Positions 5,781-38,375 of a stretch of DNA of 64,000 nt are shown in pieces. A program made the translations under genes and the position numbers. The DNA comes from Malania oleifera (lineage: Eukaryota; Streptophyta; Magnoliopsida; Santalales; Ximeniaceae), in NCBI RefSeq assembly GCF_029873635.1, contig NC_080418.1, forward strand, positions 9,803,062 to 9,867,061. Direction: 5' to 3'. The stretch's first letter is position 1. Each line of letters begins with the position of its first letter. The notes below the pieces were generated by a model, which saw nothing but the letters and a program-made list of their open reading frames with translations, made no database searches and was not told the DNA's origin.

Positions 5781-7758
5781 TGTGACAACCCGAATAATAA
5801 TGGGATTTAAATAATAAAGAGGAAGGGAAATGGAAACAGTAACAGAAAGAGGAAGTTGACTAAAGCGTTCGTCGACGACATTGCACTTTGGGAGTATTAA
5901 TCGAGGGAAATCATCAGGTCCTCGTTGATGAACACAGGGGATTCGTCGACGAGGGTATAAGAGGGCCTCGTCGACGAAGCCAAATTTCATCAACGAGAAG
6001 ATACTGAGAGAGGGTTTTGTGGGAGTCTGAATTTCGTCGACGAAGGTGTAAGTTTGTCGACGAACTTTCTTCAGGACTTGTCGACAAGGTGACGTGCCTC
6101 GTTGACAAATCTGATCCTATAAATAGTAGAAATCCAGATTTAAACATAAAAATTAAGAAATCCCTCACTCACTCTCTCCCTTCGATTTCGGGCCGGATTT
6201 TCTCCGGTTCGAGGATCTGAAGCCACCACGACGCTCCTAGAGAAGTTCTCTGCATATCTGCTAGAGCGGATCGTTGGTGGAACCCCGTTGAAAATCATTC
6301 CTGAGTTGAGGTAAGACTTTTTATGCCGAATTTGGTCCTACTGTAGTTATAGGAAATGATATTCGCCTAAAAATATTGAAGTTTAGTATTGGGAGTTTTA
6401 ATTTTCAGGGTATAGATTAGGAAATCCTACGGGTGTGAGACCAGAATTTATAGGGGCTTTTCTTAGTAGTCAGGTAAGGGAATAAACAAAAGTAGTTATT
6501 TTCCATACAAATTATTATTATGTATGAGTAAATTTATTTTCAGGAGAGCATGTATTATATCTGTATATTACAAAGGAAATGCACGTTTGGGAAAATACTG
6601 CTATTATGTTAAAATGTATATATATGTATGGGATGCTAGAAATTATGATTTTTAGAATACAATGTATGACTTTATACAACAAATGTGTGGCATGAATATT
6701 ACTTTACGTGAAATGTATTACGATATGACTTTGTTACGAATGAAACATGTTTTCAGGAATATGAAATGTTATAGTGTAAAATGATGTTGAAAATACATGA
6801 TAATTGATTTATTTTCAGAATGATATTTATGAAATGATTTCAACGCGAGGTCGTATTTATGAAATGTTTGGCACGAGGCCATATATATGGAATGATTTCG
6901 GTGCGAGGCCGTATTTATGAAATGATGAAAAATGCTATAATCTTATGTATTATATGTTATCAGAAACCGGATGTTAGTTTAGTTCAGTTTAGGAGCACGG
7001 TACCGTAGCTTATAGATCAAATACTATGATCAGATTGGTGCTAACCATCCCACGAGGGGGTGGGAGATAGATAGTCGATGTGGCTTTCAGTGTAGAGTGT
7101 GGACGTCCACCTGACAGTCCGGACTAGGGTGTGGCAGGCCCATCGTACTTATAGATATTTTTGACTCGACAGTGATCAGCCAGCCATTATCGGGTCTCGC
7201 CTTCGGGCTACACAACCCGTCATAGGGGGTTATACATGACATCAGCTAACTATTCATCCTGGGTGTGTTTTCAGTATTATTAGCTATAACAGACATTTCA
7301 TGATCAGTATGAATTATTAGAAAATATGAAAGTATATGATCATTCCACCATGTTATGATGTATGTTTTTAGATATATGAAATGTACTGAGTATGTATAAC
7401 AACAATAAATATTTATGTTGCCACACAACTGTATTTAGTTTATTTTTCCTTACTGAGAAGTGTCTCACCCTCGAATTTAATTAATTTTTCAAGAGACTCA
7501 GAGAGACCGGCGGGTCGTGGCCGCCGTTGAGTTGTCCTAGATGTATTTTTGATATTTTGAGGTTGTATATATAAATTCAGTATTTTGGAGATATAATAGA
7601 CTCTAGTATTACGAAATTATTAGTTGATGAATGTGATTTACATTTACTGCTACCTAAGTTCCACTGTGTATGACAGGTGTCCCCGCTACCCCCGGATTTG
7701 GGTTGACTATTTTATTTATTATGTTTCATAATATATTAAGATTTTTGAGGCTGTTACA
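5781..7758 (+). mobile_element. Solo LTR, Gypsy-type family G1, TSD ATACC
   Basis: A 1978-bp LTR from TGTGACAACCCG to GGCTGTTACA is flanked by the perfect duplication ATACC (5776-5780 and 7759-7763). U3 carries a dense array of TCGTCGACGA-like palindromes (5862-6110), followed by a TATA box (TATAAATAG, near 6118). It splits the 5' LTR of a related Gypsy element in opposite orientation. No internal region is present, so it is a solo LTR. Confidence 0.92.
5862..6110 (+). repeat. GTCGAC palindrome array in LTR U3
   Basis: About nine copies of a degenerate TCGTCGACGA palindrome lie within 250 bp, ending just before the TATA-like box near 6118. Several copies show decay expected from CpG deamination (TTGATG, TTGACA). 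Position and palindromy suggest protein-binding sites in the LTR promoter; that role is inference. Confidence 0.7.
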
Positions 7759-8220
7759 ATACCCGAAACCCCCAATTTTCCTAGAACTGTAACCTGAAAA
7801 TCTTGTATTTTCACCTGATATATTTTCCCAAATAAGTAGTCAAAACATACGTAGAATCGTAGACTACAGTTTTACTGATTCAGATTACAAAAATAACTGA
7901 TATAAATAGAATCTCCTTACCTTTCCCCGAATACCAAAACACAAACTCTACGGCTCCAAAACTACGAATCGAGTTCCCAAAACCTAAACATTAAAGAACT
8001 ATATTTCACTATAATTTTCACTACTACATATATACCGAAACGAAAAAGAAATCGGACTCTCACCTTGATTTTAGGTCAAAACCCGAAAATCCTAAAAATG
8101 AAGATCTGGTCCGCTATCCTCGAAGAGATTCTCCTCCTTATCCACGTAGAAATGCTAGATCGTTGATTTGGGTAACGAATGGCCCGAAACCTTAAAGAAA
8201 GGGAGAGTGTGTTCGAGTTC

Positions 8221-8221
<1 letters not shown>

Positions 8222-8270
<49 letters not shown>
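8222..8270 (+). repeat. (GA)n microsatellite
   Basis: About 24 uninterrupted GA units lie inside the minus-strand Gypsy LTR. A similar tract occurs in the G2-type LTR at 16424-16480. Confidence 0.97.
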
Positions 8271-8273
<3 letters not shown>

Positions 8274-8284
8274 TTGGTTTCTTA

Positions 8285-8480
8285 AACCAAGTTGACCCGA
8301 CCAGCCTCGTCGACAAGACGACGTCCTCGTCAACGAGCCACAGAAAGAAATTCATCGACGTCAAGGTAGACTCGTCGACGAGCCTGAGATTTCAGAATTT
8401 CCCAAAGTCCCTCGATATCTCCTCGTTGACGAGCTACTAAATTTCGTCGCCGAGCTACACAAGAGACTTCGTTGATGAAC
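8285..8480 (-). repeat. GTCGAC palindrome array in LTR U3 (second copy)
   Basis: Degenerate TCGTCGACGA motifs (for example ctcgtcgacaagac, ctcgtcgacgagcc, ctcgttgacgagc) recur every 20-35 bp near the start of the minus-strand LTR that ends at 8559, in the same relative place as in the solo LTR at 5781. Confidence 0.65.
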
Positions 8481-8819
8481 CTTGCTGATTTTTACCTTTT
8501 AAATTTTTCTTCCCTTTTCTTATTTATTTAATACACCTATCTCGGGTCGGGTTCTTACAGGATACATGTAGGGGAAACAAAAAAAATGGGAGTGCTTGCC
8601 GAAACTCCTATTTAATTAGTTTTTATTTAATTTACTTAATTATTTAATTAATTAATTTTTTTTGAAATCATTACATCCTCTGCGTCTACTTTGTTTATCT
8701 TATGAAATTCCATTTTAATTAGACCAACCTCCAAGGAGCGACTGAACCGCAATGGTTTCTGAGCACTCGCTTAGACAAGGTCTTTCTTAGTCATCAATCA
8801 TGGAATCAAGGATCCTAAC

Positions 8820-10098
8820 TGTAACGCCCCGAACTCGAAACTAGGGTTCAGAGTGTTATTTAAAATAAATCTCTGATACCATATAACAAAACAATGGAAG
8901 ATCACCATAACAATTACCAGAGCACTAAAAAATTAACTTTTATTACAATAAAAATCCCAATACAACAATAAGATTATGAGATCATCAACAACATAAATAA
9001 AATACTTAACAATTCTACACTAGACCTTCAATTCCACCCACGCTTCCACAGCGCACTCTGATTATTGTTATACTCCTCATGGTTACTGAAAAATGTTAGA
9101 TATGGATAGGATGAGACACCTCTCAATAAGGATGGAATAAATTATTATCAGTGTGTGACAAATGAGTTTTTGTGTATCACATATAAATAATAAACAATAC
9201 TTGTATCATATAAATAACCTTCTATATTGTGGTTCATGTTTACATATTAAACCATTATATCTTCTCAATTTCCTGGGTCCTGTTTACATGTAAAACATTA
9301 TATCCTTTGGTGACTACCTCTGGGGCATATCCAGGCACTCACTAACATTGAGACGCCTTCTACTCCCTACCCAATTCAGCAAGCCCTTAGACTACTCCAA
9401 GGATTGAGGCGTTACGTATGGCCGTCCCCCTTTGCCTAGATACCACCAAACAGATACCCCAGATATGCAACTTTACAATACTATGGTACCATATTCATAA
9501 AGATATTTCACATTACTCTCAACAATATTACAATAGGTTTAATTTATACAATAACTTGAAATAATCTCATGCCACACATTTAAATAATAAAATCAAACTT
9601 TAATAACACTCAGAAAATCATATACCTCATAATATAATCATATATTCAAATTTAAAACCTACATATACTCAGATTAAAATCAACCTAACATCCATATAAT
9701 TATATTCTTTAATTTAATTGGTTAATATTTAAAATAATTATTATTATAAAATCCCTAGGTTCACAAATACCAATTTAATCAATTCATAATAAATATAATA
9801 ATCCAAAATTCAATCTCTATATGCCAAAATATTCAAAGAAACGTATATATAATTCCTGTAATCTTATATTACAATTTAATCTTTCAAATTATAAAATTTT
9901 TGACATCATTTATTCCCCTTATCTCACCCCATGAGTGGTGCCTACGATACTCCTACAAAAAATCTACTCCAGTTAAAATGTCGGTGGCGGAGAATGGAAC
10001 CTACAAGTATTTTCCATTCTCCAATTGGTGAACGTTTGGCCGAGGAAATCGAGAAGAGAGAGAGAAATGATGGAGGAGAGAGATAGAGAGACAGAGGG

Positions 10099-10129
<31 letters not shown>

Positions 10130-11958
10130 GAAATTATGGGGAGGGGTCTCTGCATTCTTTTAAAACAAATTGAATCCTGAAGGATCATTCAAGTTACTAC
10201 TTACATATATAATTATTTAATGATTTAATTTTAATTTTAATTTAATTAATTAATATTTAGACTTCTATGCATATTAATTTTCTAGGGCGTTACATTCTCC
10301 CCTCCTTATAGGAATTTTGTTTTCGAAATTCGATAATTATGACCTCGAACGAAATCAATCGTGATTCCCATAAACTTAAGTTAACTCATGAACAATCCTA
10401 TCTTCTTGTTCCTATTTCCCTCCTAACTCATCCTATGCTCTAGTAACATCATTCTTAGAGTCTATAGAATTTATATCCTAAACTTTGATATCAACTGTAA
10501 CGCCTTGAACTCGAAACTTGGGTCCAGAGTGTTATTTAAAATAAATCTTTGATACCATATAATAAAACAGCGAAAGTTCTCCATAATAATTACCAAAGCA
10601 CTAAAAAATTAACCTTTATTACAATAAAAATCCCAATACAACAATAATATTCTAAGATCATCAAAAACATAAATAAAATACTTAACAATTCTAAACTAGA
10701 CCTTCAAACTCACCCATGCTTCCACTGTGCACTCTGATTACTGTCATACTCCTCATGGTATCTGAAAATTGTTAGATATGGATAGGGTGAGACACCTCTC
10801 AGTAAGGATGGAATAAATTATTATCAGTGTGCCAAATGAGTTTCTGTGTATCACATATAAATAATATACAATACTTGTATCATATAAATAACCTTCTATA
10901 CTGTGGTTCATGTTTACATATTAAACCATTAAAACTATCTTCTCAATTTCTAGGGTTATGTTTACATGTAAAGCATTATATCCTTCGGTGACCACATCTA
11001 GTGCATATCTAGGCACTCACTAACATTGAGGCGCCTTCTACTCCCTACCCCAATTCAACAAGCCCTTAGACTACTCCAAGGATCAAGGCGTTACGTATCG
11101 CCGTCCCCCTTTGCCTAGATACTACCGAATAGATACCCCAGATATGCAACTTCACAATATCATGATACCATATTCATAAACATATTTCACATTACTCTCA
11201 ACAATATTACAACAGGTTTAATTTATACAATAACTTGAAATAATCTCATGTCACACATTTAAATAATGAAAACATACTTTAATAACACTCAGAAAATCAT
11301 ATATCTCATAATATAATCATATATTCATATTTAAAACCAACATATACTCAAATTAAAATCAACCTAATATCCATATAATTATATTCTTTAATTTAATTGG
11401 TAAATCTTTAAAATAATAATTATTATAAAATCCCTAGACTCACATACACCAATTTAATTAATTCATAATAAATATAATAATCTAAAATCCAATATTCATA
11501 TTCCAAAATATTCATAAAAACGTATATATAATTCCTGCAATCTCATATTACAATTTAATCGGTTAAATTATAAAACTTTTGACATAATTTATTCCCCTTG
11601 CCTCACCCCAGGAGTGGTGCCTACGATACTTCTACGACAAATTCACTTCAGTTAAAATGACGGTGGTGGAGAATGGAATCCAGGGGTATTTTTGTTCTTC
11701 GATTGGCGCACGTTTGGCTGAGGAAATCGAGGAGAGAGAGAGAGAGTAGAAATTGTGGGGAGGTCTTTACATTCTTTTAAACAAATTGAATCCTTTAGGA
11801 TCTTCAGGTTACTACTTATATATATAATACTAATATATTATTATATTATATTATTTAATTAATAATTATTATTATTTAATTATTTAATTTTAATTAATTA
11901 ATTAATTAATTTATTTATTTTTACACTTCCATGCATATTAATTTTCTAGGGCATTACA
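8820..11958 (-). mobile_element. Two-LTR non-autonomous element with a 201-bp interior, TSD CTAAC
   Basis: Two near-identical LTRs, 8820-10294 (1475 bp) and 10496-11958 (1463 bp), both with TGTAACGCC/GGCGTTACA-like ends, flank 201 bp. Read on minus, the interior begins with a primer-site-like TTGATATCAAAG next to the right LTR. It ends with the polypurine tract AAGGAGGGGAGAA next to the left LTR. It holds no ORF of note. The perfect TSD CTAAC (8815-8819, 11959-11963) proves a single insertion. The LTRs are far longer than in TRIMs and the interior far shorter than in LARDs, so it must have been mobilised by enzymes of another element. Confidence 0.9.
10100..10126 (+). repeat. (AC)n microsatellite
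   Basis: An uninterrupted AC run lies in the left LTR of the 8820-11958 element. The right LTR has only a short GA run at the matching place, so the tract differs between the two LTR copies. Confidence 0.95.
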
Positions 11959-12066
11959 CTAACAGAGAAACACTTTCGTATTGATATTAACTTAATGACT
12001 AGTTTTATTTTATTATTATTATTATACTTTAATCGTATATACATTTTTGAGGTCATTACATCCTCC

Positions 12067-12285
12067 CCTCTTTATAAAAATTTCGTCATCAAAATTTACT
12101 AATTTAAAATGAATACTATATTTGTGCTCTTGGTTTGAGAGATTTGGCTAAGTCTTATTATAGGACCGATTTGGTAGAATATTGTCTGGGAGAGTGGAGT
12201 AAGAATCGTTGGTCTAATAGGGGTTGAAGTGGAAGAACTCAGAAAATGTTAAAAAAGATTGAATGAAATTTTTTTTTATATATAT
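12067..12285. other. Short unassigned retroelement-derived stretch
   Basis: It follows the polypurine tract at the R boundary and holds no ORF that I recognise. It ends in a TA-rich run that served as the insertion target of the LTR at 12286. Confidence 0.4.
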
Positions 12286-13973
12286 TGTTAATCATCCCAA
12301 ACAGGAGTATATAGTCTAAAGGAGGGTGAATAGGCTCTTTTTGCGGAATACATATTTTTTTACAAAATAAAATCTCTTGGTAAGATTCAAGCAATTATAT
12401 CATAATATATGAAATTTAAATCATGCACAAGACAAATAATAAAGAGTATAGGGAGAGAAATATCAACACCGGTATTTTTACGTGGTTCGGCACCAAGTCT
12501 ACGTCCACGCCTTAGCACCAAGTCAAGGATTCCACAATCCACTATGATCTCCTTCACCGGCGGAGAAGCCTTACATCTCGGGTACCAAACCCTACACTAG
12601 GGAACAAATCCCTACTACGCTCTCCAAGAGCCTTCACTTCGGTTCACAACGAACTTTCATCAAACGGTTCACAAAGAACCTTTTACAAGAGATGATGGAT
12701 ACAAAGAAATTGCTCATCAAATAAGCTAATATGAATTACAACACAATCTCACATTACTCTCTCAATGAGTGAATCAAACACAATAAATGAGCAAAAGAGA
12801 GTTGAGCACTTGAATAAGAACAACAATGATGCAAAATGCTTCGAGCTTAGGTTTTTGGTATAAAATGATATTTATGACTAACTTGTGTAAAACCAATCAA
12901 AACCATGTCTAAACAAGCCTAATATCTTGTATTTATAGCCCAAGAGCCAAAAGAGCCGTTAACTAGCCATTGGGGGAAGAAAAGATATTTTATTTCATAA
13001 ACTAACTGTTTTCCGCCTGTTGGAGTAGTTCTGCTCGTTGGATTCGTCAACTAATCACACACTGCCACTCGTCGATGAATTCCCCGAATTCGTCAACGAA
13101 TGCCTTGAATCAGAAAAAGTCATTAACATGAAAGTTGTGACATTTTGTCTTAGCCTTTAAGGAAACCAAGATCGTACTTTTTGAACTTTTCTATCAAAAG
13201 TTATGCCCCAAATACCAAAAGGTGTTTAGAAAATTTGATAGGTGCATAACATAGGTTTTAAACCCAACCAAAAAGCCTTTTAATCACTTGAAAAGTTCTT
13301 GGACAAAAGTATATAAAAATATTAAGTCTAATAAAGTTTAATACTTGTCCAAATGAGTTTCCCTTTGAATATAAGATATCTTGTCAATAAAAACACATTT
13401 AAAAAAAACCATTTTGATATCTTATATATTTGTATGTCATTTATAGAAAATATACTTGACTTCTTTGAAGCTTTAGGACATAAGACTCGTTTTGATAAAA
13501 CTAGGACTAAGTATGAAGACGTTCAAATACCAAGATATTTGAAAACTTGTCCCTTTAGAAGACATATTTGAGTTTAGGATTCATTTAACAAACTCTTAAG
13601 TTTAACTTTGAAAACCAAAAAAGTTGAGTTTGTGATTTTAGTGCAATCCTATAAACTCATGTGTCCTAGTATCCATATGCAATTTGCTCAACTCTTGCCC
13701 AAAAAATATGTATGAAACAAAACCGTAAGAGTTACAAGATATAATACCTTAAGCACACACGCATTACATAAAATCCAACATTAAGCTCCCTTTGGTTGTG
13801 CTTGGGTTCTTCCGAGTACATGTCCATTGATCTTTCTATTTGAACATCAACTTGGTTCGATCTTTACCTTTTGACCAATATTTTATGATCTGCAAAGATG
13901 GAAAACACTAGAAACCACATATAGGTTAATATCATCAAAACACATAAACTAAGATATTGTAGCCACCAAGGCT

Positions 13974-13977
<4 letters not shown>
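12286..13977 (-). mobile_element. Solo LTR, Copia-type, TSD TATAT
   Basis: Read on minus, the LTR starts TGTTAGCCTTGGTGG and ends GGATGATTAACA, 1692 bp. The end nearest 12286 has the gagggtgaatagg block and cacgtggttcggc block found at the 3' ends of many plant Copia LTRs. The flanking TATAT on both sides is compatible with a TSD but weak evidence, because the site is TA-rich. Degenerate GTCGAC motifs occur at 13035-13110. Confidence 0.75.

Positions 13978-14013
<36 letters not shown>
13978..14013 (+). repeat. (AT)n microsatellite
   Basis: A perfect AT run lies immediately beside the right end of the LTR 12286-13977. It probably expanded from the target site. Confidence 0.93.
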
Positions 14014-14018
<5 letters not shown>

Positions 14019-14358
14019 CTCATAAATTACAAAGAAAAAAATAAAATAACATAAAATAAAATTTAGCCCTTCTCCCCCATGTGTGTGCTTAAATTAAAAT
14101 CTTAACTCAACATCAACATCTATTGAAGTGCTAACGGTGTCACCGCTATCTACCTAGGTTCTTTCTTGGTGGCGTTGAATTCTTACAATATTGTTGGCTT
14201 GGGTCGGAAAAAGGGAGAGAACGCTCGTTTGTTCAGCAAGGGAGGAAGAGCTGCCCTTTTTCCTTTATGGCCTTTAGTGGGGATGCTTGCAACCAGCCAT
14301 CAGTTGCTCGTACGCGAGTCTCAATGCATATTAGAGCTGTTGGCAGTGGTGGAGTAGA
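14014..14358. other. Unassigned sequence left of a solo LTR
   Basis: A 63-codon ORF (14166-14357, +) matches nothing I recognise. The sequence is the left half of a target split by the LTR 14359-16861; the right half begins at 16867. The joined sequence gives no long ORF. Confidence 0.4.
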
Positions 14359-16418: not shown

Positions 16419-16487
<69 letters not shown>

Positions 16488-16637
16488 TGGAGATGGAGGT
16501 GAGAACGGAGACTGGATAGAGACTTGGAGAGGGGCTGAGAGGCGCTGGCGAGTCTAGAAAGATGCAAATTTCAATTTGCATTCTCACCTTCAAATTGCAT
16601 TAAATGCAATCTTACTAACCATATTAATATTGTTATA

Positions 16638-16671
<34 letters not shown>

Positions 16672-21095: not shown

Positions 21096-22540
21096 AATAA
21101 CCAAGACCCTCTTTACTTAAGGAGTTTCTTTGGGCACCAAGTAGTTTTTCGAAATTGCGTTTACCCTCGGTGAATTTAAAAATGATTTTGGAGCTATCCT
21201 CTAATTTTCTTTCAAGTTCAGTAATAGTAACAACCTTTTCTTTTAAAACGGAAGCATGAGAGGTTTTTGCACAATTTTGACCAATTTTCACATTTCTTTT
21301 TCAAATCATCATTTTCTTTGGTCATTTTACTCAACAGTTTAGATACACGAATATAATCAAATTTTAATTCTCTAAATGTAGACATGCAGTCAGAATCAAA
21401 ATCATCAAATGAATAATATGAAGATAATGAACTAGAAGACAATACCTCATCAACGTGTGCCATCAAGCACAGATTAGCAACCTCTGAATTGCTGTCGTCT
21501 GATTCTGATTCGTTGCTGCTAAGTTTATCCCATGATGTTCCAGCTTTCATGGCTTTCTTCTTTTTCTTAACTTCCTTTTTTAGCAGTGGGCAGTCTGGTT
21601 TGATATGTCCAATCTTATTGCAGTTATAACACGTAGGAGCATTTGATTTTTCTTTTCTTTTGCTAGACTCTCCCTTCTCAATCGTAGACTCCCTATATTT
21701 TTTGTAGGGCTTTCTATTTTTCCTGAAAATCTGCTAAGCTTTCTAGTTAGCATTGCCATATCATCATCAATATCAGGTTCGCTGCAATCACTAGATGAGT
21801 TAGTGGAGATTTTTAATGCAGTTACTTTCTTAGCCTTATTATGCTCAGTAAGTCTTTCATTTATGGTTAATTCATAAGTGATAAGGGAACCTATCAGTTC
21901 ATCTAAGGACATAGCCTTAAGGTCTCTACCCTCAGCAATGGCCGTAACCTTGGCTTCCCAAACAGGAGGCAAACCTCTAAAGATCTTCCTAATCATCTCA
22001 TACGTGGGATAGGTCTTCCTTAATGCATGTAATGAGTTTATGATGTGTGTGAATCTAGTGTACATGCTCTGAATGGACTCACCTACATTCATCCTAAATG
22101 CCTCATATTCACTGGTCAACATATCTATCCTACTGTCCTTCACATCTCTAGTACCCTCATATGTGACTTCTAACTTATCCCATATTTCTTTTGCAGTAGA
22201 GCATGCCATAATCCTGTTAAACTCATTTGCATCAAGACTACAATATAAAATATTCATGGCAGTGGCGTTAAGACTAACAGCTATCATATCATCATCATCT
22301 TATTCATCCTCAGTCTTAGGAACCTTAGCTACGCCCTCAGTTTTCGTAGGGACATAGTTTCCCTTAGAGACAATCCTCCACACCTTCCAATCAGTATTCT
22401 GAAGGTAGATGCGCATCCTCTGTTTCCAAAAGGTGTAATTAACACTACTGAAAACAGGAAATCGTGTGGATGATGGTCCTTTAGGAAAAGGGTTCACGGT
22501 GCTATGAGTCATATGCGATCTTTTGCAAAATAACAACTAG
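21096..22540 (-). pseudogene. Copia gag polyprotein, broken and truncated
   Basis: On the minus strand, 22536-22300 encodes the Gag N-terminus (motif FSSVNYTFWKQRMRIYLQ). 22287-21660 encodes the UBN2-type core (YCSLDANEFNRIMACSTAKE, then EGTRDVKDSRIDML). After a frameshift near 21660 comes an intact CCHC knuckle CYNCNKIGHIKPDC (near 21630-21590), then an acidic serine-rich segment and a coiled-coil-like Lys/Glu segment to 21096. A stop near 22288 separates the first two blocks. Protease, integrase and RT are absent. The gag directly follows the primer site beside the LTR at 22568. Confidence 0.88.
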
Positions 22541-22567
22541 TCTATGCAACGTGGCTCTAATACCAAT
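22541..22567 (-). other. Primer-binding site of Copia element
   Basis: On minus, ATTGGTATTAGAGCC directly follows the LTR end GCTAACA at 22568. This matches the initiator Met-tRNA complement with one change. It fixes the polarity of the LTR to its right and of the gag to its left. Confidence 0.85.
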
Positions 22568-24784
22568 TGTTAGCTTTACCGAGATCCCAAGAGGGGGGGG
22601 TGAATTGGTATTTTTAAATTTTAATCCCTAGGTTAATCTCCTAACACTAGTATATTCACAACCCTATGGTCAATCTAGTGTAAGTAAAGTAAATGTTTAC
22701 CATAAAGTAAATAAAACGATTTAATCAAATACACATGCACCAGAAAGTAGTAAGGTAAGAGTGACACACAGAAATGTTATCGAGGTTCAACCAATTGCCT
22801 ACGTCCCCACCTTAGCTAACAAGCAAAAAGATTATCACTATCACTTGCTCACTTAAACGGGCGGAGCAGCACCTATACAAACCAGGTTAATTAGCACAGG
22901 ACTGACCTCAACCTTTACACCAATCCTTATCGGGTTGGATTACCGCCCCCTCAAGCCACGCCTGGAAACACTCAGATTTTACAATCAAATGGTACAATAG
23001 AAAAGTGCTTTCACATAAAGCAGATTTGTACCCAAATACGTTCAATTACAAACACAAAAAATGATTTAATATGTAAGCTCAGTGTGATCTTATATTTCAA
23101 CTCTCAAATATGATTGCTATCAGTGTAATGAGTGCGTGAGAGTATCAACAAACAATCTTTGTATCTTAAGATATTCAAATAACCATGTTCACACAAGATG
23201 TCAAGTAGCCTTAAAAATATCAATCAACATGATATTTTAATCGCGTGAATATGTATATGCTTGGTTTGCAAAATATATGTAATCCTTGTATTCAGCAAAT
23301 AATATGTGAGTGAATGAATATTGCAACAAAGATCACTATTACAAACACAAATATCTTTTCACAAAATATGTAGATCTAAATCACACAAGATATTTGAGAG
23401 TGTTTTTGAAAACGTTTTTGCAATAAAAATAAATAAATACAAACTTCCTAAGCTATTGCAACACAACTGCAATACTCAGAAGCTTAAGGCAAGTCTTCTT
23501 AAGATAGGCTTATCGGCAAAACCCCCTAAGAATACTTACGTTTAGTTCTCGGTAAAAACGAATCAATCACACAAAAATAGGATAGCAAACCTTTTCAATA
23601 CAGACACTCAATCAACTTACAGAGGGTTTAGACAATGGTGGCAGGTAAGTATGAGTGAATGGATATTCAAAATCGCAAGATAGGAAGTTCTGGAGAAATT
23701 TTCTTAATCGTATATTTTCAATCTGTATGTAATGTCTCTAAATAAAAAGTATATATAGGGATACCATAAATGATGCTCGCTGGGGACATGGTCGGCATTT
23801 TTAGAAAAGATTAATACCATTTTTAGTAATTAAAATAGTTAAATAAGGTAACATTTCAAAATAGCCCAAGAGCATCGGTCGACCAGAAACATTTTTGGTT
23901 GACCAGAGTTCATAAGGTTCGGTCGACTAGGTCAAAAATGAAATTTAGAGTCGTTCGACCAGATCAATATGTCCGAGTCGATTTTTCAAAATCAGCGCGG
24001 TTCGGTCGACCAGGCAAAAATGAACTAAGGGCTCGGTCGACCGAAAAGAGGCGATTTTTCAATTCTCCAAGGTTCGGTCGACTAGAACTATAATAAACTA
24101 GACTGGTCGGTCAACCAGACCGTTGGATCCCACACGTGGGAATTCGGTCGACTAGGTTGGTGCAGTACAAAAGGTCTCGGTCGACCAGGAAGTCAAACAG
24201 TTGACTCCAAGGGGTTTTGGTCGACCAGGGTGAAATGAACTTCAAAGGCTCAGTCGATCGGACTGAAGTCAAACTGTTGACCCAGACCGTTTTCGGTCGA
24301 CCAGGTAAAAAATGACCTGCATAGGTTGGTAGCTTGAAAGTACAAAACTTGTGCATTTCGGTCCTTTTTCAAACAAGCGATCACCCAAATCAAATGATCA
24401 ATCATATGTATGCATGAGTGAGTTTCCTAGGGTCATTTCAGGCCTTTTTGAGTGTACCGAAAAAATCAGGTGTCGGTCAACCGAACTTCCCTAAGGTCTT
24501 TCTATGGTCATTTGATTTTGAGCTTACGTATTAGACCATGCATGTGATGTGTGTGATTATTACATACAGAAAAGCCCTAATTACTATTACAAACCCTTTA
24601 CATGAATGAAATATATTGCAACATAAGAAATTGGGTCTTCAATAGAAATTTGGTCTTCAAGCTTCACTTTCTTCATGTGCATTATGATCTGTCAATTTAA
24701 ATTCCTATACAAAGTCTTAAGTACCCATTAGATACAATGAGTATTTGTCATAATCAAAATCGGGCATGACCTATAAGGTCAACA
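22568..24784 (-). mobile_element. 5' LTR of Copia element, family C1
   Basis: The 2217-bp LTR starts at 24784 on minus (TGTTGACCTTATAGG) and ends at 22568 (AAAGCTAACA), with the primer site next to it. The left part holds the caagagggg/gtgaattgg block and the tacgtccccacc block. The U3 (23870-24490) holds about fourteen GGTTCGGTCGACC-like motifs. The right flank is LINE ORF2 sequence. The 3' half of the element is missing, so no TSD could be tested. Confidence 0.88.
23870..24490 (-). repeat. GGTCGACC palindrome array in Copia LTR U3
   Basis: About fourteen copies of a CGGTCGACCR motif, many preceded by GGTT or followed by AGG, lie about 30-45 bp apart. They sit between the LTR start and the region matching the TATA-like block. 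Variants GTCAACC, GTCGACT and GTCGATC fit CpG decay. The same slot in the C1 LTRs at 1-270 and 3030-3400 carries CGGGCGACCGAACC instead. Confidence 0.75.
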
Positions 24785-28559: not shown

Positions 28560-30057
28560 CTTGAGAGAGAATTTTTAATTGAGTTTTCTAATCTCTTCGC
28601 TAATTTTCCCAAATAAAGGAGTATATAGAGACACCCCATGAATTATAACCATTGGGGACAAGGTTGGGATTATTAGAAAAGTTTTAATGACATTTAGTAA
28701 TTTTAACCCTATTAAAAAATAGTTAACCACGGTAAAAATGCAGGGCAACCCATGAGCATCGGTCGACCAGAACACTTTCAGTCGACCCAAGTTCATATGG
28801 TTCGATCAACCGAGCCAAAAATGAACTTTAGGGTCGGTCGACTGGAAAGGTATGTAAGAGGCGATTTTTTCAAAATAGCGTGGTTCGGTCGACCAGGACT
28901 AGAATGAACTAGACTGGTCGATCGACCAAACCATTGGATTCCCACATATGGGAACTTGATCGACCAGGTTGGTACAGTACAAAATTGTCTCGGTCAACCA
29001 GGAAGTCAAACTATTGACTTCAAAGGGGTTCGGTCAACCGAGGTCAAATGAGCTTCAGAAGCTCGGTCGACTGGACTGTGGTCAACTTGTTGACCCAGAC
29101 CGGGTTCAGTCGACCAGGGGCAGAATGAACTGCATATGTCGGTCGATTGAAGGTGCACAATTTGTGCATTTCGGTTCTATTTCATTCCACATTCACTCTA
29201 TTCAAGTGCCTAACACATACAAGTGCAATGGTGAGTGTCCTAGGTTCTTTTCTAGGTCCCGTTTCAATTGTATTTTCAGTTTGAACTTACCTATTAGACC
29301 ATGCATGTGGGGTGTGTTATTATTACAAGAAAAAACCCTAATTACTATTACAGACTAATTACACAAATGAAATATATTACAACGTGAAGTAATTAGGTCT
29401 TCAATATTCACTTTCTCTATGTGCATTCTGATCTTGACAATATAGGTTCCTACACATAATCTCAAGGACCGACATATGTAGTTCATTCTGCCCCCGATCG
29501 ATCGAATCCGGTCTGGGTCAACAGGTTGACCACAGTCCGGTCGACCAAGCTTCTGAAGCTCATTTGACCCCGGTCGACCGAAACCCTTTGAAGTCAATAA
29601 TTTGACTTCCTGGTCGATCGAGACAATTTTGTACTGCATCAACCTGGTCGACCGAGTTTCCAGGTGTGGGAATCAAACGGTCTGGTCAATCGACCAGTCT
29701 AGTTCATTCTAGTCGTGGTCAACCAAACCACGCTATTTTGGAAAAATCGCCTCGAACATACCTTTCCATTCGACTGACCCTAAAGTTCATTTTTGGCCTG
29801 ATCGACCAAACCATATAAACTTGGGTCAACCGAAAGTGTTCTGGTCGACCTGTGCTCTCGGGTTGCCCTGCATTTTTAACATGGTTAACTAATTTTTAAC
29901 AGGGTTAAAATTACTAAATGTCATTAAAACTTTTCTAATAATCCCAACCTTGTCCCCAACGGTTATAATTCATGGGGTGTCTATATATACCCCTTCATTT
30001 GGGAAAATTAGCAAAGAGATTAGCAAACCCAATTAAAAATTCTTTCTCAAGTGAAAC
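28560..30057. repeat. Inverted repeat of LTR U3, arms about 0.58 kb
   Basis: 28560-29150 and 29470-30057 are inverted copies covering the TATA-like region (gtatatag, tctatatata) and the GGTCGACC motif array. Overlapping reading frames on opposite strands (28969-29358 + and 29642-29355 -) give near-identical peptides, which shows the inversion without alignment. The spacer is about 320 bp. A transcript crossing it could fold into a long hairpin. Confidence 0.85.
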
Positions 30058-32250
30058 TGTCATGACCTACTCATTTTTCTCATTTTTTTTATTTTATAAT
30101 AATAATAACAACGTCATACATTCCAGGCCAGCAGGTCACCATCCACCTGGACCCGTGGGTACCAGGGATACATTAGAACATACAGCAGAAGCCTAAGCAG
30201 CAGAAAGTATATAATTATATACATCTCATCATAACATGCAATACAACATACCAGAGCACTATACCACTATATTTTTTTATATATACATCCCAAAAATCAT
30301 ATCTAGGGACATTTCCCACAAAATCTAACTGTCCCTACAAAAACTTACCCTTTGCAGAGGGCAGATAAACAACACTAACTTAGCGGGGCTTTTCCCGCTC
30401 TCCTATTTGGGGCTCCTGAAAAGTTTATAATATTAAGGGGTGAGACACCTCTCAGTAAGGGAAATAAACTAATACCAGTGTGTGGCAACATGAGTATTCT
30501 GTGTTCTACATATATCATACATAACATAATCAGTACTGTTTTATCAAATCAGGAAAACATAAATATATCAGCACATGGCAGAACATACTGCATTTCATAA
30601 ACATATCTCATCTCATAATATAATAATAACATAAAAACAATCCTAATAGGTTAGCTGACTGTTGTCATGTATTGCCCCCACATGACTGGGTTGTGTGGCC
30701 CGAAGGCGGGACTTGACAATGGTTGGTCGACCACTGCCAAGTCAAACAGTAGTCTGTAGGTCCGATGGGTCCGTCAGACCTGATCCGTACACCAGGGGCG
30801 ATAACAGCACACTTCTTGAAAATAACCACATTGACCATCCAATCTCACACCACTCCGTACAGCGGCGTTAACACAGATATCATGATCACGAAAACCATGG
30901 ACACATAACAATGGTACCGTGTAAGTGCTAGCCTAGACCAAGCCAACCAGGTTCTGATATCATATAATATATACTAAAACCGTGATACATGAGTATCTCA
31001 TATCATTAATTTTCACATCAATCATATCATTTTGCATATATACGTGTATCATGAAAATTATCGGCCCGTATGCCAGTATTACACATTTTATCATAGCTTA
31101 GCCCGTATGCCGGCAAAACATAGCACAGCCCGTACGCTGGCAAATCACAGTCTCATAGCACGGTCCATACGCCGACAAACATAGCACAGCCCGTATGCTA
31201 TAAATCACATCATAGCACGGCCCGTGCGCTGGCAAACACATCATATCATGGCCCGTACGCCGGAAAAACATATAAAAACCCCGGCCCGTACGCTGATTTT
31301 CCATCATAAAATCCATATCATTCACATTTTCGGAAAAACAGTATTTCACAACGTTTTACACTCATGCCACACTGAACATATTTTCCACGCATTCAACATA
31401 GCATCCTTTAAACAGTATTTTCCCAAATATAAATCATATATATATATATATAAATATATTTATTTTTCCTGAAACCAGATACTATATATATATTTAAATG
31501 CATTTTCTCAAAACAAAACTAACTTAGTTTATCTCCTTACCTGACTCCTGAAAAGCCCCTAAGAAAATCTTCCCCGCACCCACAGGGTTCTCAACTCAAC
31601 ACCCCTGAAAATGAAAACTCTCAGTATTAAAGTTCAGTATTTTCATACGTACAGCATTTTCTATAACTACCACAAAGTCAAATTTGGCTTAAAAAGCCTT
31701 ACCTCAACTTAGGGATGATTCCCAACTTGCTTTCACCAATGATCCGCTCCAGCAGTTTTGGAGAGAACTTCGCTAGGAGCATCGTGGTGACTTCAGATTG
31801 TTGTCAGACGTAAATCTGGCCTGAAATCAACGAAAGAAAGAGGGAAAACCGAAGGGGAGAGAGAGAGAATGAAGATGGCTTATGAAAGAAGTTAAAAATC
31901 GGATTTTCCATATTTATAGAACAGGGGATTTCATCGACGAGCCCGTCCTTCGTCGACGAATTCTTTATTAATTTCGTCGATGAAATTCAGTCGGCTCAAA
32001 CCCCCTCTTGGTATTTCTTCGTCGACGAGTCCCCTATATTCATCGATGAATTTTCTTAAGCCTTCATTGACGAATCCCTTGTATTCATCGACAAAGCCCT
32101 ATTGATCCCCTTTTCGTTAGTCCTCCCAAAGTTCAATGTCGTCGATGAAAGCTTCGCGTTCGTCGACAAAGTCAACTGCTTCATTCTGTTTCCAACTTCC
32201 ATTTCCCTTTTCTTTTATTATTAAAATACCATTTTATTCGGGTCGTTACA
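30058..32250 (-). mobile_element. Solo LTR, Gypsy-type family G1
   Basis: The 2193-bp LTR has ends TGTCATGACC and GGTCGTTACA. Flanks are GAAAC (30053-30057) and GAAAA (32251-32255), a TSD with one mismatch. It shares the cctaagcagcagaaa block with 36253-38463 and, inverted, the aggagcatcgtggtgactt region with 5781-7758. A TATA-like box lies near 31912 on minus. A GTCGAC array is at 31928-32175. Confidence 0.85.
31928..32175 (-). repeat. GTCGAC palindrome array in LTR U3 (third G1 copy)
   Basis: About nine TCGTCGACGAA-like motifs, several decayed to ATCGATGAA or ATTGACGAA, lie upstream (minus sense) of the TATA-like box near 31912. Confidence 0.7.
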
Positions 32251-32752
32251 GAAAATTAGCAAGTCTTAGCAACCAATATTATTGTTGATTTGTTTTCTTG
32301 CCTTAGACTTTGTGGATATTAATTATTACTTGTGATGCACAACTCCTTTGTCGACTTTATGATGATATTGAAATTTATATTTGATTGTTGGACCATACTA
32401 TACTGTTTGAGTAGTTGTGGATAAACTGCTAGGCTATATAAACTCAAACAGGTTACAATTTATACAAGATTTGTTTTGGAAAGTCCAGTTCACAAATGAC
32501 ACTACCGAAATTTTTCAAAATCTTTCCAAAACTCATAATGTATAAATGTAACACTTACCCATTGCCTAGAGTACTTAACTCTTATAGCATTTTTTATTGT
32601 TGCCAAAAGGGGGAGATGGAGAGGCAAAAATAATTGGGTAAAGTAATAAATTGGATGCATGCCGATAGGGGGAGTCTTCTTAGGCTTATACCTATATTTT
32701 TGCTGATCATATTTGTCATCATAAAAAAGGGGCGTGACCTATAAGATCAACA

Positions 32753-33960
32753 CCCTGTATAGGATATTGTATGGTTTAATTTGTCACATAGGAGATTAGA
32801 GATTCTGTCAATCAAAGGTGTATAGTGCATTTTGTTAAGTCTTGATGCTGCCAGAGCAATTCCCAGATATCTGAAAGGGAAGGCCCTCTCTTGAAAGTCT
32901 ATTAGTCTTTTATTTGTTCCAATTCTAGAGCTTTAATTCTAGCATGAAGTATATTGGATTTCAGGTTATTTGCAGTCATACCTGAACACTTCAAGAAGTT
33001 ATCAAGACATTCCACCAGTAGTTTAACTGAACTTGAGTCCCCTTTGAGAATAGAATCAAATCATCAGCGAAGGCTAAGTGATTGATTCTTAGCTGTTCAC
33101 ATCTCGGGTGAAATCTGAACCTTTTATTGCTTTCAAGTCCCTTCAGCAGTCTCGATAAGTACTCTAGTCCAATTACAAACAGTAATGGAGAAATAGGTTC
33201 TCCTTGACGGAGTCCTTTTCTACCCTCAAAGAAACCATGGTAGCCTCCATTGAAAGAGAGGGAGTATGTAGAAGTGGATATACATTGCATAATTTAATTC
33301 ACCATGACCCCTGGAAACTTTAGTTGCTCCAACATTTCCTTAATAAATTTCCACGACATAGAGTCATATGCCTTTTTTAGATCAACCTTCAGCAAGCATC
33401 TAAGTGAGACTCTTTTCCTTGCATACTTCCTTACAATTTCCTGCACTAAATAGATATTATCCATCATGCTTCTGTGTTTGACAAAAGCAGATTGTGCTGG
33501 ATTCACTATATCCTCAAGGTGAGGATTAATTCTACTTGCAATAATCTTTGATATCACCTTATACATCATGTTGTAGCAAGAGATGGGTCTATACTGCTGA
33601 ACAATGTTTGCATGGTTTGATTTTGAAATCAAATCAATGATCGTGTGATTAATCTGTTTCAGTAGTTTCCCTGACTCAAAGAATTCCTTTACTGCCGTGA
33701 GAAGTCCTTCCTAATTATATTCCATGATTTCTTGAAAAAACATGTTGTGTACCCATCAGGTCCTAGGGATTTCAGATCCCCAATGTTGAAAATAGCAGAT
33801 TTAATCTCCTCATTTGAGATAGGAAGTACCATTTGAGTAGCTTGCAATTCATTAACCACCTTTCCTCTGGCAACTACCCCTGGATCAGTAGGCTCTGTAT
33901 TCACTTCCTTGCCGAAGAGCTCCTTATAAAATTTTGAGAATTCCTCCACAACTTGCTACA
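32753..33960 (-). pseudogene. LINE ORF2, reverse transcriptase domain, broken
   Basis: Minus-strand pieces in order: EIKSAIFNIGDLKSLGPDGY (RT start), QYRPISCYNMMYKVISKIIA, AFVKHRSMMDNIYLVQEI, LLKVDLKKAYDSMSWKFI (first catalytic Asp), GLRQGEPISPLLFVIGLEYL and LAFADDLILFSKG. The last has the ADD catalytic motif, normally FADD. A stop separates the fingers from the palm part near 33292 and a frameshift lies near 33690. This is an L1-type plant LINE. The apurinic endonuclease domain is missing on the right. The C-terminal piece lies at 25065-24785 beyond a Copia insertion. Confidence 0.93.
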
Positions 33961-34254
33961 GAGAGGAGAATTTGTCACAACGAATATCTTTGAAAATGAG
34001 ATCGGAAAAAGTGGGTGAGTGAGAATTTTAAATATAATAAAAATTCTCCTTCCACCACTAATTCTTTTACTCACTAATTCTTCTCTTTCTTTGAATTTTT
34101 TTTTTTTTTTGAAAAATGAAGGTTAAGAGCTTCATATTTATAGGAAAATTTCGGGGAAGAAAATGAAATTTATAAAAGTGTGGGGATAAGGGTGAAATTA
34201 TAATTTTTTTTTTAAATGAAAGAATGGGCATGGGACGAGCTTGGGATGAGAGGT
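33961..34254. other. AT-rich stretch next to repeat R
   Basis: It holds TGTCACAACG near 33973 and a TATA-like tatttataggaa near 34137 (+). It may be the rest of the LTR to which repeat R belongs, but no end was fixed. No gene seen. Confidence 0.35.
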
Positions 34255-34560
34255 ATGGGATGGGAATGGGGATGCATGTGGGGGAAACAAAAAAAATGGG
34301 AGTGCTTGCCGACACTCCCATTTAATTAGTTTTTAATTAATTTAATTAATTAATTAATTAATTTTTGAAATCATTACATCCTCTCTGTCTACTCTGTTTA
34401 TCTTATGAGATTCCATTTTGACCATGCCGACCTCTAGGGAGCGGCTGAACCACAAAGGTCTTTGAACACTCGCTTAGACAAGGTCTTTCTTAGACATCAA
34501 TCATAGAATCAAGGATCCTAACAGAGAAACACATTCGTATTGATATTAACTTAATGTCCA

Positions 34561-34608
<48 letters not shown>

Positions 34609-34643
34609 GCTTTAATCGTATATACATTTTTGGGGTCATTACA
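34255..34643 (-). mobile_element. Repeat R copy B (uninterrupted paralogue)
   Basis: It matches 8563-8814 plus 11959-12066 throughout and shows the intact CTAAC site (near 34517) where the element 8820-11958 inserted in copy A. It ends in GGTCATTACA at 34643. A (TTA)n run (34564-34608) is longer than in copy A. Confidence 0.8.
34564..34608 (+). repeat. (ATT)n microsatellite
   Basis: About fifteen ATT units in repeat R copy B; copy A has about five at the matching place. Confidence 0.95.
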
Positions 34644-34649
34644 TGGTTT

Positions 34650-35570
34650 TTGGAATGTGACGTGTTAATTAAATTATTTGTGATTTAGAATGCTGACTTA
34701 TGAAACATTTATTAGTAAATTACAATTTCAAAAATAATTGATTGATACATTTGTTATTACTTCCTTTTGGTTAGTGTATAAAGAGAAATTTGAACAAAAA
34801 TATAGCATTATTTGTGTCTCAACGCAACTCACAACCTCATCCTCCTTTATGCTTGTTGTTGAACCCTTATTCTAGTTCGCTAGACACATCTTAATTTTGC
34901 TTGACGATAGTATTCGTGACTTGAAACTTCTTCTCTGATGACAACAAGGTCTCAACTATTCCTGCTTCGTAGCCATAAACATGAGTTTATCACTCCCTCT
35001 CTCTTCTCCATCTTCTTCCCCTTAGTCGTACATGTGTTGATTTCCTTTATACGGACACTTTCCTAATCCTTTGTTTGGTTAGCAAGAAAAGAGAGTGATT
35101 GAATCACCAATAAACTAAGAAAGAATAAGGTTACATTTTAAAAAATTATAAAAAGAGAAGAAAATAAGAGTTGCTAAGACAAATTTACTTGCCTTGAATT
35201 TATATGGACTTTGAGTTGCCAAGGAACTAAGTTTATTAGCCCTAAAATTTCTCACAGTGCCCCAAAATCCTTCCATTTCTTGTCCGTTTTACTTTAACCT
35301 AGAGGCTACCACCCACAAGTCCATGAGATTTTTAGAAGAAAGCACTTTTCTTGCGCTCTCAAATGGAATCCACAAATAGCTATTTTGGTGCACTTTATTC
35401 TAGTGTTGATTTTTAAAAAAAAAATTGAACTATATCACAAAGTTAATAATAATAATAATAATAATATTTGAAATTTGAATACGATATCACTAAATTTTTT
35501 TGGTTAATTGATTATTCTAGATGGATTACTTAATATCACTCCTCCTCCATGAGTTTATAATTCAAGGGAG
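34650..35570. other. Unassigned intergenic sequence
   Basis: AT-rich with many stops on both strands. No repeat terminus, ORF family or RNA gene recognised. Confidence 0.5.
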
Positions 35571-35573
35571 GGA

Positions 35574-35835
35574 CGACTCAGATGGTATGAACACTTGCAA
35601 CGTAGGCCATATAGTGCACCTGTAAGGAAAAGTGTCTTAATTACTGTGGGAGGCAGTAGAAGGGGTAGGGGTAGACCTAAAATAACTTGGGAAGAGATAG
35701 TGAGTAAGAATTTAATATCCTTGAATCTATCAATAGAAATGGTCCATGATCGCATAAATTGACGGAAAATGATTCATATAGTCGACCCCACCTAGTGGGA
35801 CTAAGGCTTGGTTTTCTTCTTGTTGTTGTTGTTAA
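35574..35835 (+). mobile_element. 3' end of an RTE-type LINE, 5'-truncated
   Basis: The + frame reads RLRWYEHLQRRPYSAPVRK, then GRGRPKITWEEIV, then IHIVDPT. These are typical of the C-terminus of plant RTE LINE reverse transcriptase and the residues after it. Three in-frame stops show decay. It ends in a (TTG)n tail at 35821-35835, as RTE elements do. Only about 260 bp remain. Confidence 0.8.
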
Positions 35836-36247
35836 AAGTTTTAAGACATGATTAGGTATAGTTGTCAGTAAGTTTTTGTCTTGAAAATATAATTATTATT
35901 TTATATATTTTTTTATACATATGTCATGGGTGTGATAGTCATCTTCTTGAAATGTTGGTGAAGACCTTTATGTTAAACTACTCAATTAAATAAAAACATT
36001 CTCATGAATCTCACATCTTATTTGAAGGAATGAGATTTTCACAATACCATCTATAAAAATATTGCCAATGCCATGAATAAAATGCTCAACTAAATTTTCA
36101 TTTTGAAGTCCAAGAAACATGAATCTTTAAAGGGCAAAAAACATTGACCTTCCTTAAAATTTAACAAAAAGACAAAGTCTTTCCTTGAGATTCCATAATG
36201 AGAACATACATGCCTATTTTTCTTGAAAGGCTTTGAAACTGTTGATG
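35836..36247. other. Unassigned intergenic sequence
   Basis: AT-rich, no gene or repeat terminus recognised. Confidence 0.5.
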
Positions 36248-36275
36248 CTGGTTGTAACAACCTGCCTATTTTACC

Positions 36276-36281
<6 letters not shown>

Positions 36282-36328
<47 letters not shown>
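36282..36328 (+). repeat. (TA)n microsatellite
   Basis: About 23 TA units in the LTR; the sister LTR at 30058 has (TAA)n at the matching place. Confidence 0.95.
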
Positions 36329-36330
<2 letters not shown>

Positions 36331-38189
36331 GTTTTCACAAAACATCCATAATAACCATAAACATACTCCATCCAGATCCATGGGTACTGGGGTCAACCTT
36401 GTCATACACCTCTAATACCTAAGCAGCAGAAAACATATATCATATACATATCAAGTCATCCAACCAACACAATACCAGAGTTCTACCAGGTCTGTCACAT
36501 ACATATACACATCCCAAAAAACCAAAAAATGCCCTAGGGTCATAACCCAAAAATTCATCAGACCCTAACATAACGACTTACCCTTCTGACATGATAGGAC
36601 TGCCAACCTCTAATGCTACGGAGCTCTATCCGCTCTTCTATTTGGGTTTCTTGAAATATTTATATAGTTGAGGTGAAATACCTCTTAGTAAGGGAAATAA
36701 ACTAACATTAGTATGTGGCATTATGAGTATTTTCGTGTTATACATGTAATAGTACATAAATCATATTTGGTAAAACTATCTGTATCATATCTGGATAAAA
36801 CATAATTTATCATAACATGGTATAACATACTGAGTTTCTATACATGAAAAACAACTTATATGACTGTACATTGAATAACACTCTGGATGGATAGCTGACT
36901 GGTGTCACGTCTTACCCCCATATGACTAGGTTGTGCGGCTCGAAGGCGGAGCCTAGCAATGGCTAGCCGACCACGTTAGATCAATATAAGTCTGTAAGTA
37001 CGATGAGTTTGCCCCTCTTGGTCCAGACTGCCAGAGGGACGCCTGCACTACCATGAAACCACATCGACTGTCGTTCTCCCATAGTTCCTTACGACATATG
37101 GTAGTACTAACATATACATGATTGTGAACATATAACTACGGTATCGTGCTTCTTGAAAGCCTAAACCAAGTCATCCGAATTCTGATAACATATAGTAGGT
37201 TTCAAATAATGATACATAGCTGTTTCATAATAATATCCTTCATGATAATATTTTCATGAATTTTTGCATATCATATCATGTAAACCACGACCCTTGCACC
37301 GACATATTATATCTTGTAAATCACGGCCCTTTCGCCAGCATAGTAACATGTAAAACCAAGACCCTTACGCCGGCACAATATATCATATAAAACCACGGCC
37401 CTTACGCCGGCATATTTTAATATACATAGTTTTGAAATCCTTATACTGTTTCAATACCATACTTCAAACATAGTTCCTGTATCATTTTCATGGTTTTCTT
37501 GAAAACTAAGAAAAACATGCTTATTTTGGGAAAATCACAATATTATGATATAATACAATTTCATGAAAATTATACTCATGCCACACAAATATGAATAATG
37601 TTTTTAAGCATAAAAAGCTGACCTGAAATCATATTTCTTGATAAATAACATTAGATCCATTTTCTTGTTCAACTACAATATTCCCAAACATTGCACTAAT
37701 ACATACCTAATTTCTGAAAATAAATGTTGTAATATGGTAAATAATTTCATGAAAAATACTGACTTAGTTTATCTCCTTACCTGACTTATTGAAAAGCCCA
37801 CAAATTAACCTATCCTACACTCGTGGTGTTCCTAGTTCAACATCCTAAAATTTACATCTTCCCCAATAAAACTTCAGTATTATTTTTCCTAACATATTCT
37901 TCTTAGTTTAGAAACACCAAAAACCTAATAAGACTTAAAATAATCAACTTACCGAAATTTTGGGATGGTGCCCAAGTTGGCTTAACCAACGATCTACTCC
38001 TGCAGATATGAAGAGAAACTTCTTAGGAGTAGCGTGGCGGCTTCGGATCATCGAACTGGAGAAGAATCGGTCCAAAAACCTAGAGAGAAGGCAGAGGGGG
38101 TCAGAGTTAGAGAGAGAAAGTAAAATTCTGCATGTTTTTCGCAGAAAAAATGAATTCTTAGCCTTATATAAAATGCTTGTCCATGTGGC

Positions 38190-38375
38190 CTCATAGACGA
38201 GCCACATCTCCTCATCGACGAGTCAATGAAGTGAGCTCGTCAATGAACACCTTCTCCTCGTCAACGAGTTTTAGGTCTTAAAAACAGTCTCTTGGTAAGT
38301 TCTCGTCGACGAGACGCATGTTCCCATCGACGAGCCCAAGAACCCTGCTCATCGACAAGCACTTCTCCACTCATC
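38190..38375 (-). repeat. GTCGAC palindrome array in LTR U3 (fourth G1 copy)
   Basis: About eight CTCGTCGACGAG-like motifs lie in under 200 bp, next to the TATA-like box near 38165 (minus). In this copy the flanking letter is mostly G, giving CTCGTCGACGAG rather than TTCGTCGACGAA. Confidence 0.7.

Follow-up and report, generated by a model that had tools for sequence, protein, structure and literature searches.

Why do long terminal repeats (LTRs) of different retrotransposon families carry arrays of the same GTCGAC-centred palindrome? The question is raised by a 64,000-nucleotide stretch of the Malania oleifera genome (NC_080418.1, positions 9,803,062 to 9,867,061, forward strand; this whole stretch is called the window). 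There, the initial annotation placed such arrays in the unique 3′ regions (U3) of Gypsy G1 and Copia C1 LTRs, just before a TATA-like box, and proposed that unrelated families had converged on one host factor or on a site for methylation or silencing. From sequence comparisons, we consider it probable that these are family-specific promoter arrays bound by a putative host factor.

The GTCGAC hexamer occurs 38 times in the window, when 3.04 occurrences are expected (100 dinucleotide shuffles, with a largest value of 9). Two words underlie the arrays. The G-type word, YTCGTCGACGAR, is represented by 130 copies and is palindromic throughout. The C-type word, annotated as a palindrome, is symmetric in its core, but as a whole it reads asymmetrically as CTGGTCGACCGA in the LTR sense. 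Copies of the G-type word were counted at up to 2 mismatches to TCGTCGACGA and those of the C-type word were scored against CGGTCGACCG, with 300 shuffles per stretch. The G1 stretches contain 9 (5862-6110), 7 (8285-8480), 10 (31928-32175) and 8 (38190-38375) copies, with shuffle means of 0.31-0.56, and the three C1 LTRs (C1a, C1b and C1c) contain 13, 12 and 7 copies; none of these counts was reached in any of the 300 shuffles. The few copies proposed at 13035-13110 proved to be three of the G-type word (stretch 13030-13110, 0/300 shuffles). Thus, all seven main arrays are present as annotated, with 7-13 copies each against shuffle averages below 0.6, and the enrichment over shuffled U3 is confirmed: the arrays are real and beyond chance. 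The arrays are:

5869..6108, + strand: G-type array of 9 copies in the U3 of an LTR starting at ∼5782, family G-A (Gypsy), with TATAAATA at 6118.
8307..8478, − strand: G-type array of 7 copies in an LTR starting at ∼8559, family G-C, which differs from the family of the LTR at 5782.
13044..13099, − strand: three decayed copies of the G-type word, in a repeat that belongs to a different family and has 76-80% similarity to locus L013, with TATAAATA at ∼12930-12937.
23876..24303, − strand: C-type array, CTGGTCGACCGA in the LTR sense, in a Sirevirus-like 5′ LTR, with TATATATA at ∼23750 (12 copies by the array caller, 13 by the CGGTCGACCG count extended to 24490).
28760..29116, − strand: C-type array of 11-12 copies in the second C1 LTR.
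29523..29851, + strand: C-type array in the inverted third C1 LTR, 7 copies by the stricter word and 11 by the array caller.
31931..32169, − strand: G-type array of 10 copies in an LTR starting at ∼32251, family G-A, with TATAAATA at 31911-31918.
38191..38380, − strand: G-type array of 8 copies in an LTR starting at ∼38466, family G-A.

The arrays are not peculiar to the window. In a random sample of 20 stretches of 10 kb, all from one contig (named contig C1, not to be confused with LTR family C1), GTCGAC was found 88 times vs. 10.0 expected, and with this ratio of 8.8 it ranks first of the 64 six-base palindromes, the next one that contains CG reaching 3.4. Arrays were present in 14 of the 20 stretches, 19 in all (12 of the G-type, 7 of the C-type), and 70 of the 88 hexamers lay inside arrays, which span 3% of the sample. 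The resulting densities (11.6/kb within arrays vs. 0.093/kb outside) are partly circular, because arrays were defined by the motif. Most arrays have 7-14 copies, which commonly follow one another every 19-25 bp in G-type arrays and every 31-41 bp in C-type arrays. Phasing of the spacings against the DNA helix gave resultants of 0.19 (G-type, 114 spacings) and 0.41 (C-type, 85 spacings), values that carry no significance test and were not used.

The position just before TATA was borne out for the G-type arrays, but not for the C1 arrays of the window, which end 118-132 bp before it. Of 16 G-type arrays, 12 have a TATAWAW box 9-21 bp past an end (for each array the chance of this is 0.18); of 10 C-type arrays, 8 have TATAWA 100-132 bp past an end (chance not computed), and 2 of these 10 arrays extend to the locus end. 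In the whole assembly (1.494 Gb), TCGTCGACGA is found 5-35 bp before TATAAA (pattern TCGTCGACGAN{5,35}TATAAA) 22,055 times, as compared with 31 for the backwards pattern and 6 for the isomeric palindrome TCGACGTCGA; with the TATA reversed there are 3,357 matches, part of which correspond to TTTATAAA. Such genome-wide TATA counts may include two words ahead of one TATA. The C-type GGTCGACCGA precedes TATATA by 95-125 bp 3,404 times vs. 59 backwards, a number inflated by double counting in TATA runs. Chance or base composition as the source of the arrays is ruled out by the shuffles, the random sample and the isomeric-palindrome control. In both Copia and Gypsy elements, the arrays are located in the U3 upstream of the core promoter, as annotated. 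In several G-type promoters on contig C1 the palindrome is followed by GGGTCAAAGG or kin and then by CTATAAA, so that the promoters may have one more element in common in the interval from array to TATA.

The families that carry the arrays were read by eye from the pair list of 600-bp flanks of 26 arrays, which fall into C1 (8), C3 (2), G-A (7), G-B (3), G-C (4) and two singles. With 1.2-kb flanks, 25 of the 26 join in one cluster, probably owing to nested insertions. Distant similarity persists between locus L019_6550 and both G-C and G-B, and L008_277 also matched L020. Among 66 pairs, none of the 27 between G-type and C-type arrays exceeded z 4, giving no sign of shared ancestry. The four G1 LTRs had been taken for one family; this holds for those with arrays at 5869, 31931 and 38191 (G-A), but the flanks of 8285-8480 match L017/L018 (G-C).

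The C1 elements resemble Sireviruses. A Copia gag domain (PF14223, 6.8e-26; 21583..22299, − strand) lies downstream of the C1 5′ LTR, a zf-CCHC domain was also detected, and the LTR ends in a diagnostic junction:

22554..22569, − strand: end of the C1 5′ LTR and primer-binding site, CA/ATTGG/TATTAGAGC, a Sirevirus-type junction with 1 mismatch.

The junction CA/ATTGG/TATCAGAGC occurs in the window at 22565 (− strand), in L007 at 1745 (+) and in L015 at 1988 (+), each time with 1 mismatch and a C-type array upstream. In C1, a palindromic motif with CGG-CCG is present in 8 or more copies in the LTR upstream of TATA (for C1c, 7 by the stricter word and 11 by the array caller), and fits the Sirevirus case. 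Two C1 LTR pieces, 28560-29144 (−) and 29467-30051 (+), form an inverted pair, 90% identical over 585 bp with 322 bp between them; if transcribed, this segment (28560-30051) would yield a long hairpin, a possible source of small RNAs.

The hosts of the G-type arrays are of two other kinds. In L018 (G-C), RT_RNaseH (2.4e-19) and SH3_Tf2-1 were detected, with rve and H2C2 below the cut-off, and in L127 (G-A) SH3_Tf2-1 (4.5e-21) lies directly before the 3′ LTR. Since no coding sequence was found beside the G-A copies of the window, their class rests on LTR homology. These Gypsy hosts are presumably of a Del/Tekay-like lineage, a placement suggested only by the wording of the integrase C-terminal domain when set against that of Del proteins. 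The second kind is an LTR pair of ∼600 bp (L022/L123, 86.9% identical) around Copia gag, SH3_retrovirus and RVT_2, with 4 and 6 G-type copies. Its junction, CA/AATTGG, is one base longer than that of Sireviruses, and by this junction the element is a classic Copia, not a Sirevirus. Within L018, positions 2726-3371 and 5890-6535 form a direct-repeat pair (95% identical, starting with TGTGACGCCCCGA, without GTCGAC). The pair lies within a G-type Gypsy that is older, and it probably marks a later insertion nested in that element.

How much of this is known? Bousios et al. (2010; PMC2829016) described the repeated-motif (RM) boxes of Sireviruses, in which each element has 8 or more copies of a palindrome that contains CG, grouped in the LTR ahead of a conserved TATA box, and in Table 3 of that paper the RM of a Vitis Sirevirus is CGGTCGACCG, with 10 copies in the 3′ LTR upstream of TATA. 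The C1 word is identical to this Vitis word, in keeping with the C1 junction. The claim of an undescribed system therefore fails for the Copia half, because the RM boxes were already published. In that paper, RM is termed Sirevirus-specific and absent from the classic Copia elements compared, and Gypsy elements are outside its set. Unlike RM boxes, the G-type arrays have a word (YTCGTCGACGAR) without the CGG-CCG signature, and they are found both in Gypsy LTRs and in the LTR pair of a classic Copia. Cruz et al. (2014; PMC4029996) reported plastic 5′ CpG islands in the LTRs of Del (Gypsy) elements, none of them in its eudicot Del elements. These islands resemble the arrays in being CpG-rich, length-variable stretches in the 5′ part of the LTR, and the terms ‘palindrom’, ‘tandem’ and ‘repeated motif’ have 0 occurrences in the main text of that paper. 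No description of palindrome arrays in Gypsy LTRs was noticed among the papers listed, which leave out most of the subscription literature. The G-type array, with its attached second word (see below), in Gypsy and classic Copia LTRs looks new.

Convergence of all families on one GTCGAC-reading host factor has in its favour that one genome holds the same core in LTRs of Sirevirus-like, Gypsy and classic Copia elements, and that GTCGAC is its top sampled palindrome. Two U3s of the window that are related to C1 bear on it:

1..260, + strand: C1-related U3 array with a TTCGGGCGACCGAAC-class word, and TATATATA at ∼385.
3030..3390, + strand: second copy of the C1-related U3 array, TTCGGGCGACCGAAC class, with TATATA at ∼3517.

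In both, TTCGGGCGACCGAAC and kin are repeated and the outer half-sites retained, but GTCGAC is absent. The core thus differs between related families of the same genome, a sign of word turnover. Moreover, the C-type core holds the Sirevirus CGG-CCG signature, whose centre differs in other Sireviruses, and the bases flanking GTCGAC in the G-type word are as conserved as the core and are not those of the C-type (copies having been selected on the 10-mer). We regard a single reader for all families as rather unlikely.

A stronger link between superfamilies than the GTCGAC core is a composite that joins the G-type palindrome to a second element, AGATACCGAGAG. The element was noticed after the fact, when L022 was compared with the Gypsy arrays. 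At up to 1 mismatch it has 7 matches in ∼282 kb, all among G-type words, and six of the seven sit two bases behind a 10-bp palindrome copy; two of the seven (L001 and L004) come from loci chosen for carrying two GTCGAC. One match is in the window:

5999..6010, + strand: copy of the second element (AGATACTGAGAG) that differs from AGATACCGAGAG at one position; the palindrome copy at 5987-5996 lies 2 bases ahead of it.

In the assembly, exact AGATACCGAGAG occurs 7,823 times vs. 62 for its reverse, and directly behind TCGACGAGN 2,030 times vs. 0 backwards; these counts support the post hoc element independently. On contig C1, the first 20 of the 2,030 places divide into 16 with a match to Gypsy LTRs and 4 with a match to the L022 Copia LTR. 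The part common to the two superfamilies is exact over 24 bp (TCGTCGACGAG-N-AGATACCGAGAG), and no alignment between the Gypsy and L022 Copia LTRs was found beyond it.

Because Gypsy and classic Copia share this composite, unrelated families converging on one core is too simple an account. What stands of it is the same core in three LTR groups; the C1 relative without GTCGAC and the extra 12-bp element at fixed spacing weaken it, and the latter can be explained equally by convergence and by a U3 module held in common or exchanged. Sharing of U3 by recombination, the alternative that the initial annotation set against its own proposal, comes close to what the 24-bp composite suggests, but the similarity ends at 24 bp. 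In this alternative, recombination or template switching would have moved G-type U3 modules between Gypsy elements and classic Copia ones, and the modules would then have diverged outside the bound words. The exact composite, together with a weak similarity between the L022 and L019_6550 spacers (z 4.9), points that way, but nothing similar extends past the composite and no breakpoint was seen; exchange is a real, if not the favoured, possibility. We tentatively suggest that TCGTCGACGAG plus AGATACCGAGAG could form a composite enhancer unit of both superfamilies, either a promoter module that was exchanged or one reached as both locked independently onto the same pair of host activators, and that such arrays may have accompanied the amplification of many thousands of LTRs.

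Conservation of words and spacers was compared in five of the seven G-A members, in five of the eight C1 members and in two LTR pairs. Among G-A members, the non-CpG bases of the word are 97% identical (619/641) and the A/T positions of the spacers 71% (1916/2688); the corresponding values are 98% vs. 72% for G-C and 95% vs. 66% for G-B. The word CpGs are 70% identical between G-A members, and 67% and 78% between the two LTRs of one element; spacers are 89% and 85% identical within these pairs vs. 71% among G-A members. As the CpGs are as divergent within LTR pairs as between members, CpG loss is mostly post-insertion, and the word was held before. In the 130 G-type copies, transitions were found at 130 of 780 CpG positions but at only 1 of 520 non-CpG positions. 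This pattern suggests decay of methylated cytosines, in line with the methylation-site proposal of the initial annotation, and the mutation patterns taken together suggest selection on active elements. Deaminated words may resemble W-boxes, and TTCGTCG may resemble IDD sites, although we base no claim on this.

These data are consistent with a model in which the arrays would be homotypic cis-regulatory clusters of the RM-box kind in U3 promoters: (i) each LTR lineage would have a CG-containing palindrome of its own and keep several copies of it, with a set distance to the TATA that follows; (ii) a host DNA-binding protein, probably a dimer, would bind several copies and help to fire the promoter; (iii) selection would keep the copies in elements that still transpose; and (iv) once landed, the element would be methylated, and the CpGs of the word would decay to TpG/CpA, as the mutation patterns suggest. 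The G-type array would be the same design in Del/Tekay-like Gypsy elements and a classic Copia family, with a shared 12-bp partner site.

Several observations weigh against this model. Conservation of the C-type word is weaker (90% vs. 74% in C1, 85% vs. 67% in C3), and the two inverted C1 copies of the window have no excess word conservation (91% and 91%). The C-type word, scored against its consensus, also lacks the CpG contrast (42/368 at CpG vs. 49/552 elsewhere; of the 49 non-CpG transitions, 26 are C at base 1). Identity at the non-CpG bases of the word already reaches 97% and 98% in the two LTR pairs, in which the spacers stand at 89% and 85%. In these comparisons copies were selected by match to the word, repeats can attract the aligner, and the LTR pairs are only two. 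Finally, the word may owe its conservation to RNA structure and not to protein binding.

RNA folding was compared with 40 shuffles per sequence; the L007 array, whose orientation is not known, and one short control were not included. Array RNA folds below its dinucleotide shuffles (mean z −4.13, 23 of 25 under −2), as compared with a mean z of −0.45 (3 of 24 under −2) for downstream control RNA. The palindromes might thus act mainly as RNA, with copies that pair and 3′ U3 hairpins that feed small-RNA silencing or serve the element RNA. In maize Sireviruses, small RNAs concentrate on palindrome clusters of the LTR (Bousios et al., 2016, as quoted in PMC10760457 and PMC5311732). Like the arrays here, these clusters lie in the cis-region of the LTR with strong predicted RNA structure; unlike here, the maize word is CACCGGACNNNGTCCGGTG. 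However, any palindrome array folds, an RNA role has no need of a set TATA distance, and a structure that triggers silencing should be selected against. We consider a mainly RNA role unlikely; given the strong folding, a part in small-RNA silencing can run beside the promoter role.

Words that are short, clustered in noncoding DNA and different between related families, as between C1 and the U3s at 1-260 and 3030-3390, are also the layout of an anti-silencing platform, on which an element- or host-coded protein would bind the arrays and keep the element demethylated. In Arabidopsis, the VANC target motifs of VANDAL elements are, as described in PMC12844716, short family-specific words clustered in noncoding transposable-element DNA. 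VANDALs, however, are DNA transposons that encode their own binder, whereas the LTR elements here are not known to have such a protein. We saw no additional reading frame associated with the elements, although no systematic search for one was made, and the G-type CpG decay suggests that inserted copies were methylated; we regard such a platform as very unlikely. Least probable of all is a passive minisatellite, i.e. tandem duplications without function: the regular steps and the spacer pieces repeated in C1 would agree with it, but the words are held while the spacers diverge, and the TATA distance is set.

If the promoter reading is correct, repeated palindromes before TATA, previously described as a peculiarity of Sireviruses, would be a more general promoter architecture, since the same design occurs in Gypsy and classic Copia with a partner element across superfamilies. 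The arrays also allow pre-insertion selection to be read against the CpG decay that follows insertion.

Searches for the words elsewhere yielded candidates that were rejected. In IMG/VR, two G-type words were found in 97 stretches; among the 80 listed, most spacings are divisible by 3, which makes it likely that this is coding DNA. Two C-type words were found in one stretch (L122), a short tandem repeat in a phage-like contig. The matches to the words listed from the published literature are, judging by title, cloning or other primers; a Ternstroemia microsatellite primer contains TCGGTCGACCAG, which we note as a lead only.

Other features of the window are a direct repeat of ∼1.25 kb (8817-10065 and 10493-11743, 90% identity), a remnant of a non-LTR-like reverse transcriptase at 32994-33955 on the − strand (RVT_1, 3.8e-19, 33297-33710), and a single open frame of 669 codons at 52945-54951 on the + strand, with pentatricopeptide (PPR) repeats and a terminal DYW domain.

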